The notes under the pieces are model-generated. The model searched no databases. It was not told where the DNA came from and saw only the letters and a list, made by a program, of their open reading frames with translations. A program made the position numbers and the translations under genes. From assembly GCA_903863935.1 (NCBI GenBank), contig CAIPDV010000043.1, positions 1 to 64,000 of the forward strand: a stretch of 64,000 bases of DNA. The letters are read 5' to 3'. Source of the stretch: an uncultured Bacteroidota bacterium. Its GTDB lineage: Bacteria > Bacteroidota > Bacteroidia > JABEUT01. This document shows, in pieces, positions 19,106-27,120 of the stretch. Position 1 is the first letter of the stretch. Every line of letters starts with the position of its first letter.

Positions 19106-19423
19106 TAAATATTCATTAACCTAAACAGAAAACCCTTATAGAAACATAAGAGAATTCCTTCGTGCCTGTTGATTAACCGATTAAGCGAATACTTAATAAA
19201 TCTCCACACAATACATATACTTTAAATTGACTTCATAGTAATTCAATTAAATAAATTATTGTATCTTTCAAAACCCTATTACTTATCCTAATATCCGGCC
19301 CGGGAATTGTAGTGGGGTTTATTAGCCTTACCATACAATGATTTTAGAGTATATCTAAGAACCATTTAAATGAGAATTATATTTATTTATAACCCATCTT
19401 TAGCTTTATAATATCATAATTAT
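19106..19423. other. Divergent intergenic region
   Basis: 318 bp between the permease and the Cache-like gene, very AT-rich towards the right. A possible -7 element TAGCTTTA at 19401-19408 precedes the start at 19424. A GC-richer patch around 19298-19312 (CCGGCCCGGGAA) stands out. No ORF, RNA gene or strong hairpin was recognised. Confidence 0.4.
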
Positions 19424-21613
19424 ATGTTGAAAAGTACTTTTTCTTCTTTGCGGAAAAATTTGTTAGGTGTAGTAACCCTGATTGTTTTTGCACTCCTTTT
19501 GGTATCCTACTTTAAAGTTTATTTACCGGCAAGAACCAATAGTACCAATTCCGAAAAATTCCGTGTTCTTTCGGGCATAGCCAGCAATCTTCAAAACAAA
19601 GTAATTAACCTTAAGCAGCAGGGAAAGCTGATAAAAAGCTTATTGGATACCATAAAATATTCCAAAACCAATGACCCGCTGGAGTTTGACACTTTGGTTA
19701 AGAACGATTGGGATGAATATCATAACCCTCATATCAATAAATATATTTCAGAATCAAAGCTACATTACAAAATTGGCAAGGTTTGGACAACAGGAGAATC
19801 TGTTAATGAATCTATTTACAGCAAACAATTTGTTAAGGGAATAAAGAAGGATACAGTACTTTATCATTACCTGCTAATATCCTGGGCCTGGCGTGACTTC
19901 ATGAGTAATATGCTACGCAACGATTTCAATACTTACATGCTGGTTAATAATAAACGATTATTGTATTCCAGCGATAGCTCTCTTGGTTTATCCTTTGATT
20001 CTACCCTTACTAATACTACCACCTCATCTAAAAGTGTTAGTGCAGCTACTTTTGATACAACGTATTTCGACAGCCATCTTCATTTTATTACTCCTTACAT
20101 TCAGGAGATCTACGTGGGTGGCCAAGGTTATAAACTTTTTATTTTCCCATTCTCTTTTGATGGAGACAACACCATGTTCATTTGTGGCCTGGTTCCATTG
20201 AATACCTATAATGCCGAAATAAAAAAAATACCTTCTTCCACAGTATACCTGTTGGTTCTTATCATCGTATTATTCGTGCTTCTTTTCCCTTTTTTAAAGC
20301 TGGTATTCATAAATGAATCAGAACGGCTCGGAACTTCCGATCTGTTGATGGCCATTGGCAGTATGATGTTTATCTGTGTAGCCTTAACAACTTCTATAAT
20401 ATTCCATATTGAAAACACAAAACAACTGGGAGAAGAAACAGAACAAAAAAGAAATAAATTAAGGAATGATGTTTACTCCCAATTTACACAAACCCTTGAT
20501 TCCTGTTGTATTAACCTGCAACGTTGCGACAAAATAGTAAGTGCTGACAGCACTAAGTTCAGATTGATGAACCTCTACACAACAGATACCACAGTTAGGG
20601 CTCATGGCAAAGCCGATTCAGTTTTCAGAGGTTGGGCATATGATAATATAGGGACAAAGGATAACCCCGGGAAAAACAAAAAAAACAAACTGCGCCAAAG
20701 CGGAGGGGGTATTTATACGGACACTGATCATATTGTTAAAGACACGACACTGAGTAAATATTTATACAGCATATTGAACGTAAATACAATTCAATACTAT
20801 TGGTTAAATAAAGCAGGAACACAAATACGAGACTGGGCCAAAACAGCAGATGACACAACAGGCGGAAATTATGCGGGCAGGGAATACTTTCAACATGCTT
20901 TGAACAATAGTGGAAATTATACACCTTCAATTAAGTTGCTTTACCCGGCAACATTTTATATTTCGCCTATCCTTTCCTGGACTTCGGGTGATTTTGAAAC
21001 CGTTATCTCTTCTCAATCGCAGGCAAAAGGATTGAAGGTAGCATGTGTTTCACTCAAACTGCATCACTTCACCCCGTTCACACCACAGGGATATGGATTT
21101 AATATTATCGATAGTAAAGGAAAAGTTCAATACTCCTCGGAACCAATGAAAGGTCAGAACGAGAACATGATAAAAGAATGTTCCGACTCTTCGGATTTTA
21201 CCGGAGCAATACATTCTAAAACCATTCAGACCTTCGAACAGAATTATCACTCCGAACTTGTAGATTGTATGATAAGCCCTATTGGCGGCACCCCATATTT
21301 TCTTGTGGTTTATAATAAAAAGTCCAACGAGTCCGAACGCTTGTGGTATACTATTTTTTTCACCTATCCATGTATGATTGCTTTATTCGTTTTCGTTATT
21401 TTATTATTCGGAATGATAAATATTCTTAAACGAACATCTACCAACCACAACCTAAAAACAAAAAACCTTCAATTCGACTGGATATGGCCGAGAAAAGAAA
21501 ACAAAAAGCAGTATTGGCTAATATGTGCTTTCAATCTTTTCATCTTACTATTCACATCCCTGTATCTGGGTTTCGATTTCATTGCGGGATCAGTTACTGT
21601 AGAAACCCACTAA
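19424..21613 (+). CDS. Five-helix membrane protein with two extracytoplasmic sensor domains (dCache-like)
   Basis: 729 residues. Predicted order: helix 1 (~13-31), extracytoplasmic domain 1 (~32-272), helices 2 and 3 (~275-297, ~308-330), extracytoplasmic domain 2 (~335-645), helix 4 (~650-673), a basic cytoplasmic loop, helix 5 (~697-718). Domain 2 has the dCache pattern: GREYFQHAL (485-493), then FYISPILSW, then a closing strand YGFNIIDSKGKVQYSS. Domain 1 ends with a similar strand set before helix 2. There is no histidine kinase, methyl-accepting or cyclase domain, so the output must be another protein. The next gene starts 3 bp downstream and encodes a membrane protein with a cytoplasmic NTPase-like domain, the obvious partner. 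Family not otherwise recognised. Confidence 0.75.
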   Translation: MLKSTFSSLRKNLLGVVTLIVFALLLVSYFKVYLPARTNSTNSEKFRVLSGIASNLQNKVINLKQQGKLIKSLLDTIKYSKTNDPLEFDTLVKNDWDEYHNPHINKYISESKLHYKIGKVWTTGESVNESIYSKQFVKGIKKDTVLYHYLLISWAWRDFMSNMLRNDFNTYMLVNNKRLLYSSDSSLGLSFDSTLTNTTTSSKSVSAATFDTTYFDSHLHFITPYIQEIYVGGQGYKLFIFPFSFDGDNTMFICGLVPLNTYNAEIKKIPSSTVYLLVLIIVLFVLLFPFLKLVFINESERLGTSDLLMAIGSMMFICVALTTSIIFHIENTKQLGEETEQKRNKLRNDVYSQFTQTLDSCCINLQRCDKIVSADSTKFRLMNLYTTDTTVRAHGKADSVFRGWAYDNIGTKDNPGKNKKNKLRQSGGGIYTDTDHIVKDTTLSKYLYSILNVNTIQYYWLNKAGTQIRDWAKTADDTTGGNYAGREYFQHALNNSGNYTPSIKLLYPATFYISPILSWTSGDFETVISSQSQAKGLKVACVSLKLHHFTPFTPQGYGFNIIDSKGKVQYSSEPMKGQNENMIKECSDSSDFTGAIHSKTIQTFEQNYHSELVDCMISPIGGTPYFLVVYNKKSNESERLWYTIFFTYPCMIALFVFVILLFGMINILKRTSTNHNLKTKNLQFDWIWPRKENKKQYWLICAFNLFILLFTSLYLGFDFIAGSVTVETH

Positions 21614-21616
21614 ACC

Positions 21617-23761
21617 ATGTTCCTTCTCCTTATTTTCTCCATAAACATTTTATTCTCTCTTGGCTTCACTTATTTTAATCTCACCAAAAATGATGCGCCG
21701 AACAGTAATCCGAAATCAGTATTTATAGGTTTTGCGGTTGTGCTTATGATGCTATTCTTAACAGCTACTTTTTTCTATGGATTTTTTTGGGCTTTCTCTA
21801 CTTATATTCTGTTCCTGGTATCGGGAATGGTATTGGTGACTCTGGCATACAATTACACTAAAGGATTACTTGGATCATTGGTAGGATTCTCAAGAAAATT
21901 CCTTAACAGGATTACCGATACTGTGTTGAATGACCGATTGGGCGTGGCAAAACAAACTGACCCGCATAGCCGCACAACCACTTCTGCAAAGGAGACCCTT
22001 ACTGATATTAAAACCCTTAGTGAAAAAAAAACCGGTATTTCAGGTGAACTTTCCATAACATCCTTTAGTAGCATCATATTTCTTTCGTGGCTTCTGATAA
22101 GCTGCATTGCTCCTTCCTACTTCCTTCAGAAATATGCCTTTACTCAAATAAACACAAGGCTTCAAAAGGATTACCAGCTTTATTATGCAAACAATTATAC
22201 TCCTTATCTCAACCTGAATAAAGATAAAACAGATTTTAGTACCAAGGGCATTGCCACTGTAAATACAGATTCCGTTTTTCTAAGCAGGAAACCGGCTTCT
22301 ACAGGAGTTGCTGACTGCATTGGTAATGATGAGGAATACAATAGTATAATTGAATTTAGCGGAGATTTGATGAACCCCGGCATTGATAATTTGCTCCCGC
22401 TTGGTAAAAATTCATCCGATGATATACTCTATCATGCAAGCAATGAAAAAAACAATTTTGACTCAACAACATTTAACTGGGCTAAAGAAAACGACAAACT
22501 AACATTGCATTATTCCGGTAATAGCGACAAGCCCTTTTATATAAGCAGCAAGTTATGGACCTTTGTAAATCCTCTGAAATTCGGCGAATATTATATGATG
22601 TTCATGCTGCTTATGCTTATCATTTTCATGTTTACCCAATATATGCTGAGGCGTTTCTTTACAAAAGGATTTATTCAACCATGGAGCGATCAACACGACC
22701 TTATAAAAACGGAGGTTGCAACTTACAAACATCTCTTGGTAACCGGGATTCCATTAAGCGGTAAATATGAAGCAGTAAGGGAATTGATTAAAGATGCTTA
22801 CCTTAAAAATGAAGTATTAGAAATAGGAGCATTAGGAGCAATTAAAGACATGGCGGTTTCAAATCACAAAATATTTGTTTTCCGGAACTTGGAATATGAC
22901 CTTTCAAACCTGGCTGCAGAGCAGGTTCGCCTGGAATTAATTGAAAAGATGATCAGTTCCCAGGAAAATCCGCAAATCATTTTGTTATCTGATTCTGAGC
23001 CGCTGGTAGCTTTAAAAAATGCAATTGAATTACATCTTAAGTCGGCTGCAAAAACAGATGATAAGGATAGTAATGACGACACAATTAAAATGAATATTGA
23101 ACGGTGGAATAACTTGTTAGGCAAATTCCATAACTGTTATTATTTCAATAACGCCAAACCGCATATTAGTGAACGCAACAGGATTCCGAAACTATGGACC
23201 GATATTATAGAAAATGAATGCCGTATGGGGACATTTTTACCCCAGATAGCTGAAAAAATTGCTGAAGAAATAAAAGGAAAGCATCCCAAAGACTGGTATG
23301 AGATCATCTGGCTGATACAGTCACACTCCAAACTTTACTACCACAGCATTTGGAACTCCCTGTCGCCAGAAGAAAGATACATAGTTTATGATATAGCTAT
23401 CGACAATTTACTGAACACAAAAAATGCAAACCTGATAAATCTGCTCCACCAAAAAGGCGTATTTGTTTCAGACCATGAAATGGAAAAAATATCCCTGTTC
23501 AATGAGAGCTTCCGGAATTTTGTACTTACAGAAATTACGCAGCATGAAATAGATACCATGAATAAACGGGCAAAAAAAGACAGTGAGTGGAGCAACTTTA
23601 AAACACCTATTTTAATTGTAATTATTTCACTTGTTGTTCTGCTTACCATTGCCAATGGCTCCAGTTTGCTTTCATATGCGGCCATGTTGCTTACGGGTCT
23701 TTCCCTGCTACAGCGGATATTCACCGGCTTCAATCAGGTAGGGATAGGTAATTCCAAATAG
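21617..23761 (+). CDS. Membrane-anchored degenerate STAND/AAA-like protein
   Basis: 714 residues. Predicted helices at ~3-19, 36-58, 60-82, 154-177, 319-341, 663-683 and 687-706; a basic cytoplasmic loop (~83-150), a periplasmic domain (~178-318), and a cytoplasmic domain (~345-660). The last starts with VTGIPLSGKYEAV: a Walker A-like loop (G377-I-P-L-S-G-K383) whose usual Ser/Thr after Lys is Tyr384. IFVFRNLEYDL sits where Walker B is expected but lacks its Asp, and IILLSDSEP resembles sensor 1. The part ~565-630 (LLHQKGVF...LFNESFRNFVL) resembles the winged helix at the end of STAND NTPases. ATP hydrolysis therefore looks unlikely; nucleotide binding or scaffolding is possible. Coupled to the Cache-like gene. 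Confidence 0.7.
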   Translation: MFLLLIFSINILFSLGFTYFNLTKNDAPNSNPKSVFIGFAVVLMMLFLTATFFYGFFWAFSTYILFLVSGMVLVTLAYNYTKGLLGSLVGFSRKFLNRITDTVLNDRLGVAKQTDPHSRTTTSAKETLTDIKTLSEKKTGISGELSITSFSSIIFLSWLLISCIAPSYFLQKYAFTQINTRLQKDYQLYYANNYTPYLNLNKDKTDFSTKGIATVNTDSVFLSRKPASTGVADCIGNDEEYNSIIEFSGDLMNPGIDNLLPLGKNSSDDILYHASNEKNNFDSTTFNWAKENDKLTLHYSGNSDKPFYISSKLWTFVNPLKFGEYYMMFMLLMLIIFMFTQYMLRRFFTKGFIQPWSDQHDLIKTEVATYKHLLVTGIPLSGKYEAVRELIKDAYLKNEVLEIGALGAIKDMAVSNHKIFVFRNLEYDLSNLAAEQVRLELIEKMISSQENPQIILLSDSEPLVALKNAIELHLKSAAKTDDKDSNDDTIKMNIERWNNLLGKFHNCYYFNNAKPHISERNRIPKLWTDIIENECRMGTFLPQIAEKIAEEIKGKHPKDWYEIIWLIQSHSKLYYHSIWNSLSPEERYIVYDIAIDNLLNTKNANLINLLHQKGVFVSDHEMEKISLFNESFRNFVLTEITQHEIDTMNKRAKKDSEWSNFKTPILIVIISLVVLLTIANGSSLLSYAAMLLTGLSLLQRIFTGFNQVGIGNSK

Positions 23762-23847: not shown

Positions 23848-25053
23848 ATGAAAAAAATATTTTTCGCTATACTTGCTGTTCTGCCGCTAACTGCATTTTG
23901 CCAGCCGAGTTCCTTAAAAGAATTGACACTTGCATGGAAAACCAGTTTCCACAAACCTATTATTTCCTCTCCGCTTGTGGATGGAGAAATAGCTTATGCC
24001 GGCTGCCTGGACAGTAATTTGTATGCACTGGATATAAAATCGGGAGAAATAAAATGGAAGTTCAAAACAAAGGGTGAGATTCGTTCCACCGTTGCCTTAA
24101 ATGGAGAAGTGCTCTATTTTACCAGCCGTGACGGAAATCTATACGCACTTTCTAAGGCAGATGGAAAACTTGAATGGGCCTTTAAAACCGGTGGTGATAA
24201 AAAGTACGACCCCTATGATTATTACGAATCAACTCCCATTGTAAATGATAACACCATTTATTTTGGAGAAAGTGACAGTACATTTTATGCATTAAATGCA
24301 ACAGATGGAAAACTAAAATGGAGTTATAAGTCTTCTGGTATTATACATACTACCCCTGCCATTGGAAAAGGGAAAATTTATTTCGGTTCATTTGACGGAT
24401 ACGTTTATGCCTTGTCTCTTACCGATGGGAAATTACTGTGGAAATTCAAATCATTGGGGCATGATTATTTTCTGAAAGGTGAAATGCAATTTTCGCCGAC
24501 CTATGCAAACGGAATGGTTTACATTGGCGGCAGAGACTACAACCTATATGCATTGGATGCAGAAAAAGGTTTCTGTCATTGGAACCGGGCTTTTCCACAA
24601 GGGTGGGTTACATCCATTACCTTATCACCAAGAACAGATTCAGTGCTTTTGATTGGAACTTCGGACCCTGAAGTTTTACTATGCATTGATGGGATTTACG
24701 GTTCGGATATTTGGAAATGTAAAACCGGAACCAATATTTTTAACAATGTAGCTTTTAACAAGACAACTTGTTTTGCAGGCACGGCCAATGGTAAATTATT
24801 GGGAGTGAATCGAACTGATGGTGTTTTGAAATATTCCTTTTCTGTTGATGGGTACAATGCAAACCATCTACAATACCTGAAGCCTGATGATACTTACCGG
24901 GATGATATTGGCAGCTTGATTAAATCGGGGGACGATTATATTACCTTTTGCACCAAACTTGGTTCAGTAATGGCGAAGCCAGTAGTTATAGGCAACAAAA
25001 TAATTTTCAGCAGTATGGACGGGAATATATACTGCCTGAATGTGCCGGAATAG
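23848..25053 (+). CDS. PQQ-like beta-propeller repeat protein, exported
   Basis: 401 residues from the ATG at 23848; the frame opens at 23782 but MKKIFFAILAVLPLTAFC is a clear signal peptide at the later ATG. Six to seven blades follow with the pattern G-x-x-YALD-x-x-x-G-x-x-x-W-x-x-K (LYALDIKSGEIKWKFKT, VYALSLTDGKLLWKFKS), as in the PQQ_2/BamB-like propellers. No catalytic residues of alcohol dehydrogenases or cofactor-binding Cys pairs are seen, so it is probably a binding protein of the periplasm or outer membrane rather than a dehydrogenase. The ligand is unknown. Confidence 0.85.
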   Translation: MKKIFFAILAVLPLTAFCQPSSLKELTLAWKTSFHKPIISSPLVDGEIAYAGCLDSNLYALDIKSGEIKWKFKTKGEIRSTVALNGEVLYFTSRDGNLYALSKADGKLEWAFKTGGDKKYDPYDYYESTPIVNDNTIYFGESDSTFYALNATDGKLKWSYKSSGIIHTTPAIGKGKIYFGSFDGYVYALSLTDGKLLWKFKSLGHDYFLKGEMQFSPTYANGMVYIGGRDYNLYALDAEKGFCHWNRAFPQGWVTSITLSPRTDSVLLIGTSDPEVLLCIDGIYGSDIWKCKTGTNIFNNVAFNKTTCFAGTANGKLLGVNRTDGVLKYSFSVDGYNANHLQYLKPDDTYRDDIGSLIKSGDDYITFCTKLGSVMAKPVVIGNKIIFSSMDGNIYCLNVPE

Positions 25054-25155: not shown

Positions 25156-25620
25156 ATGAATAAAATGAAATCTATATTATTAAAATCTCGCTTCATTAAA
25201 TGCCTATTAGCAATAATTCTCATTGTTATTCATTTACCTGCTGTTTCCCAAACCAAGGACTCAATATCAAAATTCGTAATTAAAAAATCCTGTCCATGCC
25301 AAGTTATATTGGCAGGCAAATCAAGATCAGGCAAGGATTCAACCTATACCCCGCTACCAACAATGGATGAGATACTTAAAGACCCTTCTGTAAGAATTAC
25401 AGGGTGTGCCGATTATACAGTAACCTCATTTGAACTTGTATTAAATGCGAATCGCAATACGATTAATATAGTTTCTACCAGTAATCAGCTGACACCGGAA
25501 ATGATTAACTATCTTCAACAGACAGCTAAAGGTGCCTATGTAATTTTACAAAGAGTTCATTACAAATTACCTAGCGGGCAAAAAGGGGTCATGCCAGGTA
25601 TTAATTTTAAGGTCTATTAA
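25156..25620 (+). CDS. Small exported protein resembling the GldM C-terminal domain
   Basis: 154 residues. A hydrophobic N-terminus (FIKCLLAIILIVIHLPAVSQ) is a signal peptide. The mature part contains KKSCPC (~41-46) and then TSFELVLNA, SNQLTPEMINYLQQ, GAYVILQRV, KLPSGQKG and PGINFKVY, in the order and spacing of the last domain of GldM (T9SS motor shaft): strand, LTPEM helix, strand, PDG-turn, closing strand. It lacks the GldM membrane helix and other domains. Known family: GldM interacts with GldK/PorK-type ring proteins through this end. A role at the T9SS ring, or as a decoy or adaptor, is inference. MKSILLK at 25165 is an alternative start. Confidence 0.6.
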   Translation: MNKMKSILLKSRFIKCLLAIILIVIHLPAVSQTKDSISKFVIKKSCPCQVILAGKSRSGKDSTYTPLPTMDEILKDPSVRITGCADYTVTSFELVLNANRNTINIVSTSNQLTPEMINYLQQTAKGAYVILQRVHYKLPSGQKGVMPGINFKVY

Positions 25621-25638
25621 AAACATCTTAAACTCACT

Positions 25639-27120
25639 TTAAAGCCTCACCTCAATAAACTCCCGGCTGTTTTTTATATCCTCACTCAGTACTCTGTCAT
25701 GCGTATTGAAAGAAACCTTCTTTCCAAATTCAGAGAGCAATTTCTCTAAAGTTGGCGATGTTTTCGAAGGCCTTCGGAAATGCATAGCTTGAGCGGCATT
25801 TATCAATTCTATAGCAAGAATGGTTTTCAGATTATCCAGAATTTTATAACATTTTGTTGCTGCATTGGCCCCCATGCTCACATAGTCTTCTTGTCCGTTA
25901 GAGGATACAATACTATCTATTGATGCTGGTGTTGCCAATTGTTTGTTTTGGCTTACAACCGAAGCTGCAGTGTATTGCAAAATCATAAGGCCCGAGTTCA
26001 AACCTGCGTCTTTGGCAAGAAAAGCAGGTAATCCGCGTTTGCCGGAAATTAAACAATAGGTTCTGCGTTCCGAAATATTACCGAGATCGGCTAAAGCAAT
26101 GGAGAGATAATCGAGCGACATAGCAAGCGGATGCCCATGAAAATTACCTCCTGATATAATTTTATCTTCAATAGGAAACACCAACGGATTATCAGTAACC
26201 GAATTAATTTCAACTCCAAAAACGGAACTTACATGATCTATCACATCCCTTATTGCACCATGCACCTGGGGTATACATCGGAAAGAATAAGGATCTTGCA
26301 CATCCATTTTGGGTTGTGAAATAAGTTGGCTTCCTTTTAAAATATTTTGGATAAACAGAGCGCAATTCCTCTGCCCGTGATGTGGACGCACATAATGCAC
26401 CAACTCATCGAACGGTGCCAAATGACAATCATACGCATCAATAGAGAGTGCTGCTATAGTGTCAGCCATTTTGGAAAGGCCTTCAGCTTGCATTAACATC
26501 CACGTTCCGTAAGCACTCATAAATTGGGTGCCATTAAGTAACGCAAGTCCTTCTTTAGGTTTTAAGGAAAGTGGTTTCCATTTAAATTCTTTGTAGAGTT
26601 GAGCACAAGTAAGGCGTTTGCCCTTGTAGTAAACTTCCCCTTCTCCAATCAGGGGCAGGCATAAATGCGCCAATGGAGCTAAATCGCCGGATGCACCGAG
26701 AGAGCCTTGTTGATAAACTACCGGAGTAATTTGATGATTAAAAAAATCAACCAACCGTTCCACCGTTGAAATATCTACGCCTGAATGCCCATAGCTTAAC
26801 GATTGTATTTTCAGCAATAACATCAAACGCACAATTTCTTTGGGCACCTCCTCCCCTGCTCCACATGCGTGGGAACGGATTAGGTTAGTCTGGAGTTTAC
26901 TGTAATCTTTGGGCGCAATCTTCACATTGTGCAATGCCCCAAAACCCGTATTAATACCATAAAAAGGAGCATCGGAAGATTTAATTTTCTTATCTAAATA
27001 CTGCCGGCATTTGTTAATCCGTTTCTCGGCTTCTTCTGAAAGAGCAATCCTACCATTCTCCTGGAGAATATTTTTTATGGTAACAAAATCTAGCTTATCG
27101 TTTATTTGGTATAATTTCAT
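25639..27120 (-). CDS. hutH: Histidine ammonia-lyase
   Basis: 493 residues, a usual length. The MIO cofactor forms from Ala143-Ser144-Gly145 ([14 protein letters not shown]). Tyr54 (FYGINTGFG) and His84 (LIRSHACG) match the HAL-type active site; tyrosine ammonia-lyases usually carry a second His where Ser83 is here. [14 protein letters not shown] supplies the Glu seen in HAL rather than TAL. The reaction is L-histidine to urocanate plus ammonia. No hutU, hutI or hutG is nearby. The start codon overlaps the stop of hisS (ATGA), so it is translationally coupled to the histidyl-tRNA synthetase. Confidence 0.93.

Follow-up and report, generated by a model that had tools for sequence, protein, structure and literature searches.

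Do the two long genes at 19424-23761 form a two-protein signalling system, or do they have another origin? The window (the whole stretch of 64,000 nucleotides analysed, from contig CAIPDV010000043.1 of an uncultured Bacteroidota bacterium) carries genes A and B, separated by 3 bp. The earlier note on this DNA proposed them as a candidate new system in which an external double-sensor protein is coupled to a membrane-anchored, degenerate STAND/AAA-like protein. Its coordinates and its 3-bp gap were exact, and it missed that A and B lie in one reading frame. With stop and start included, the junction reads TAA ACC ATG, and the joint frame is otherwise open over about 1444 codons:

19424-21613, + strand: gene A, 729 aa, the N-terminal half of the putative receptor (TM1, extracytoplasmic domain 1, TM2-3, dCache domain, TM4-5)
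21611-21619, + strand: TAA ACC ATG, the one place where the joint A+B frame is broken, within a short loop that connects two TM helices
21617-23761, + strand: gene B, 714 aa, the C-terminal half of the putative receptor (TM helices, variable extracytoplasmic domain 3, STAND-like NTPase core, winged helix, C-terminal TM pair)

The relatives of A and B bear directly on this question. In a first search, which covered 60 related genomes, two distant matches came up, each lying inside a single long frame, and the full open reading frames of these two relatives (1473 and 1107 aa) span A and B end to end. A scan of genome contigs with window B alone gave no relatives; alignments were needed to find them, and with these we collected 24 distinct relatives across the phylum Bacteroidota, including Mucilaginibacter, a Flammeovirgaceae MAG and an Ignavibacteriae MAG. 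The counterparts of A and B make up a single protein, 1107-1579 aa long, in all 24. Both half-profiles are matched by 23 of these proteins, and the remaining one (L031) is matched by the B profile and can be aligned from end to end. Because A and B are continuous in every relative, they appear from their sequences to be two halves of one receptor family with a single stop here, and not a general two-gene system. Thus, the idea of one transmembrane receptor that combines a Cache sensor with a STAND/AAA-like module holds, since the two are fused in 24/24 relatives, and the case that the note named as a refutation, homologues of the two parts never lying together, did not arise. The pairing of two proteins as a system does not hold, as the split form is seen only in the window copy among the 25 members. 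Members of the family are scattered: 13 of 395 genomes in the class have one, and a search of ten congeners, several of them with incomplete genomes, found none. The NTPase-winged-helix core was not found in other architectures, at this sensitivity, among 296 genomes of the phylum.

Hydropathy gives five helices in A, and hydropathy together with the AlphaFold2 helices gives about seven in B, as the earlier note had counted. The topology derived from hydropathy and models also agrees with the positive-inside rule, with Lys/Arg-rich loops at B residues 82-142 and A residues 674-695, as expected of inside loops. Three domains of the two genes are predicted to lie outside the cytoplasm:

19535-20215, + strand: first extracytoplasmic domain, A residues 38-264, PAS/single-Cache-like by model
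20414-21340, + strand: long helix and dCache sensor domain, A residues 331-639 (Pfam, PDB profile, Foldseek)
20879-20881, + strand: codon of Arg486, invariant in 25/25 members and aligned with KinD R131
22130-22573, + strand: third extracytoplasmic domain, B residues 172-319, variable and of low model confidence

In the model, the first external domain resembles a PAS fold; support from the sequence is weak, as is the similarity of this domain to the second (hhalign P=0.0012). The second is a dCache domain, on which Pfam, a PDB profile search and Foldseek concur. Pfam dCache_1 matched in 7 of 17 members (best 2.2e-12), and window A alone gave only a sub-threshold Pfam match, to sCache_like. 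The family profile found KinD in the PDB (E=1.9e-5), along with other Cache structures, and Foldseek with the AlphaFold2 model of A (pLDDT 68) retrieved DctB, McpH, PctA and other dCache sensors, from E=4e-7. No PDB entry was matched when the sequence of window A or of window B was searched directly. KinD R131, with which Arg486 aligns, is a ligand residue and is the residue mutated in 4jgq. Both marks of a dCache domain are therefore present: the fold or profile match and, in Arg486, the ligand-binding arginine of the membrane-distal module.

The cytoplasmic part of B models as a STAND/MNS (archaeal-ATPase)-like P-loop core followed by a winged helix:

22721-23011, + strand: degenerate STAND/AAA+-like P-loop core, B residues 369-465 (AlphaFold2, Foldseek)
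22745-22768, + strand: Walker-A-like GIPLSGKY, B residues 377-384 (K383, Y384)
23330-23536, + strand: winged helix, B residues 572-640, the most conserved domain of the family
23585-23737, + strand: C-terminal TM helix pair, B residues 657-707

The combination that characterizes STAND proteins, a P-loop core with a C-terminal winged helix, is found with AlphaFold2 and Foldseek at middling model confidence (mean pLDDT 63 for B, about 65-82 in the core). The best Foldseek match of the B model is 2qen (E=4.6e-5), followed by Avs4, AAA+ proteins and 2fna. A match to nSTAND3 (PF20720; 17.4 bits, below the Pfam cut-off of 27.2) was rejected, as that model matches P-loops in all 14 control genomes. 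Structure prediction thus recovered the Cache fold, the P-loop fold and the winged-helix-like end that had been read from the letters, and the earlier observations of a G-x4-GK whose Ser/Thr is Tyr384 and of a missing Walker B Asp (the window reads FVFRNLEY) were accurate.

The P-loop has decayed through much of the family. The full Walker A pattern G-x4-GK[ST], which GIPLSGKY does not satisfy, occurs only in L058 (GPPGSGKT), which also gives weak NB-ARC and AAA matches, and in L060 (GLPGSGKS). Five members of one clade (L022, L023, L028, L055 and L056) have GxPG[SA]GKL and L062 has GLPFTGKR; with the window copy, G-x4-GK is kept in 9 of 25 members, two of them with Ser/Thr. The loop is altered in three members (L019, L021 and L059) and unrecognisable in 13, four of which (L005, L026, L030 and L061) have lost most or all of the core. 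An Asp stands at the Walker B position only in L060 (VVIDHFEY) and L033. Because the family tree separates L058 from L060, it fits repeated decay of the P-loop from an active ancestor; long branches make this unsure. Conservation lies elsewhere: 16 of the 69 winged-helix columns, and none in the NTPase core, are at least 80% conserved. Because the winged helix is the most conserved domain and the P-loop is lost in 13 of 25 members, NTP hydrolysis does not appear to be the conserved function of the family. Signalling through nucleotide binding, as suggested before, is likewise not supported as a family-wide means, and K383 belongs to a motif, G-x4-GK, that a minority of members retain.

The losses that argue against a family-wide role for nucleotides leave the window copy itself to be considered. 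GIPLSGKY retains the glycines and the lysine, and other members keep G-x4-GK, so a STAND switch might still work here by binding alone, with ATP or ADP bound without hydrolysis and setting the state of the receptor. We consider this unlikely. The window has neither the Ser/Thr nor the Walker B acid, and the rest of the receptor persists in the 13 members without a recognisable P-loop, including the four without most of the core. The high conservation of the winged helix, which is kept even where the NTPase core is gone, would suit a membrane-bound one-component transcription regulator resembling ToxR or CadC, in which the Cache domain senses, the winged helix binds DNA and the NTPase remnant is a spacer. 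However, the net charge of the winged helix is near zero or negative in most members, which makes it unlike a typical DNA binder and disfavours DNA binding; the winged helix also follows an ATPase core in the matching fold family, and here it has TM helices on both sides. We regard such a regulator as improbable.

The remaining alternative concerns only the window locus, which could be a broken gene whose stop arose by nonsense mutation or through an error in sequencing or assembly, with B not made separately. This is a possibility that we take seriously, while leaning against it. The uniqueness of the split among the 25 members and the long frame that is otherwise open both fit a broken gene, and congeners are without the gene, so constraint on the split form cannot be shown. 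However, the stop falls where a short loop joins two TM helices, with an in-frame ATG immediately behind it, a placement that by our own estimate would befall a random stop in only a few per cent of cases, and no other damage is seen. The immediate ATG and the break between helices make a functional split possible, and thus the split may be functional or a defect.

The genes next to the receptor in relatives suggest what it might act on. In 8 of 24 relatives there is a same-strand gene within about 60 bp upstream of the receptor, an operon-like arrangement in which the neighbour is mostly a hydrolase. It encodes a patatin in L019, L056 and L028, a Tle1-like phospholipase (lipase) in L033, an alpha/beta hydrolase in L061 (sub-threshold Pfam matches; subtilase and papain genes lie farther upstream), an M19 peptidase in L058 (with papain and caspase genes downstream), a DUF5675 protein in L055 and, in L026, an 899-aa secreted protein preceded by a trypsin-like gene. 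The other 16 relatives have no close same-strand upstream gene of such a kind. Among 21 genomes, a patatin within 3 kb of the receptor was seen three times against 0.07 expected, a papain within 10 kb twice against 0.07, and a caspase near it once against 0.13. We chose these families once we had looked at the loci, and the patatin cases, which all three fall in one taxonomic family (f41), are not independent, so the numbers serve only as a guide. Caspase as a general partner was rejected, being not above chance. One genome that carries the receptor family has seven caspase-domain matches within 34 kb of a single contig (G719:C10:446875-480233). The L019 patatin matches PADLOC phospholipase effector models (best 9e-48), and no PADLOC anti-phage model matched window A or B. 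At four loci, an unnamed membrane protein of 338-414 aa, with a C-terminal motif near GAPFWFDLLNKL and no Pfam match at E<=0.01, is encoded three or four genes upstream of the receptor (L055:2159-3340, L028:1828-3069, L026:829-2001 and L058:1691-2704) and is the sole copy in those genomes.

In the window, A and B are part of a block with two further genes and no hydrolase gene:

23848-25053, + strand: PQQ/BamB-like beta-propeller with an N-terminal signal-like stretch
25156-25620, + strand: small protein with the GldM C-terminal (4th) domain

The block is flanked by a permease gene at 19209 and hutH at 25639. In congener G005, which is syntenic on both sides, permease and hutH adjoin, 133 bp apart, and the four-gene block is absent; the four genes were thus gained or lost together. 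No relatives of the beta-propeller and GldM-domain genes were found among the neighbours of other members, and both were rejected as conserved partners. Congeners G009 and G003 have two-gene loci next to hutH with a similar layout; these were also rejected, as they encode unrelated membrane/TPR proteins. The GldM-domain protein, 154 aa long, stands alone; its second half matches TIGR03517 (E=3.3e-5), and in the stretch examined no gliding/T9SS operon adjoins its gene. Nothing convincing was found in the way of repeats at the ends of the window block. The 133-bp gap of the empty site in G005 (L098:12921-13054) contains an imperfect inverted repeat (CGTCACTGCGAGG... / ...CCTCGCAATGACG), and its core words are absent from the window.

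Several known systems share parts of this architecture. The STAND/MNS archaeal ATPases (2qen, PABY2304; 2fna, SSO1545) and Avs4 (8dgf), the best Foldseek matches, have a P-loop core and then a winged helix, as B does. However, they are soluble NTPases, whereas the core of the receptor lies between TM helices, belongs to a protein with external Cache domains and in most members has degenerated. The dCache histidine kinases and chemoreceptors (KinD, DctB, McpH and PctA) have the dCache fold and the conserved ligand arginine in common with the receptor, which differs in having no kinase, methyl-accepting or cyclase output and instead a STAND-like core with a winged helix. The iSTAND/EAD-type conflict systems, as described in the main texts of Kaur et al. 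2020 (PMC7159879) and Kaur et al. 2021 (PMC8195603), include inactive STAND modules and caspase, trypsin, subtilisin, papain-like and alpha/beta-hydrolase domains, and in both respects resemble the receptor family and its neighbours. None of the EAD adaptor or MoxR-vWA-VMAP partners of those systems was found in the part of the receptor neighbours scanned with general Pfam models. The word "Cache" is absent from the main text of both papers, and "patatin" from that of PMC7159879. A Cache-STAND receptor architecture was not described in the literature searched, including these main texts, nor were "STAND NTPase" and "Cache domain" found together there, in keeping with the earlier view that the pairing might be new.

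Our best reading, which we hold tentatively as a whole, is a membrane receptor that senses through its Cache domain and whose STAND switch, now in decay, either gates hydrolases or serves as a platform for signalling; its parts and their fusion are well supported. A and B would together make up a single receptor of about 1440 aa in the inner membrane. A small-molecule ligand outside the cytoplasm would bind the dCache domain at Arg486, and the resulting change would travel through a bundle of about twelve TM helices to the STAND-like core and winged helix, which TM helices on either side keep at the membrane. The ancestral form was probably an NTP-dependent STAND-type switch, and most living members, including that of the window, would have a weakened or dead NTPase. 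We suspect that the winged helix is the conserved, protein-binding output, and that in some relatives it gates the co-encoded hydrolase (a lipase or peptidase). For orphan members such as the window copy, the partner might be encoded elsewhere or be one of the envelope proteins of the same block. Provided that the stop is neither a recent nonsense mutation nor an artefact of assembly, translation in the window most likely terminates and re-initiates at the junction, and the two halves would then come together in the membrane.

Most STAND switches are soluble proteins that respond to cues in the cytoplasm, and Cache is a very common external small-molecule sensor in bacteria. A family that fuses such a sensor to a STAND-like core in the membrane, next to genes for lipases and proteases, would carry an outside signal straight to effector enzymes with no phosphotransfer step. 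Members also range from a canonical P-loop to none at all, and this series displays a signalling NTPase in the course of becoming a scaffold. We also speculate, as a rather doubtful extension, that this is a new Bacteroidota family of immune- or stress-type receptors spanning the membrane. In these, a Cache domain on the outside would control a (pseudo)STAND platform anchored at the membrane, and the platform would turn on lipases and proteases dedicated to it, with receptor, switch and effector recruitment in one polypeptide.
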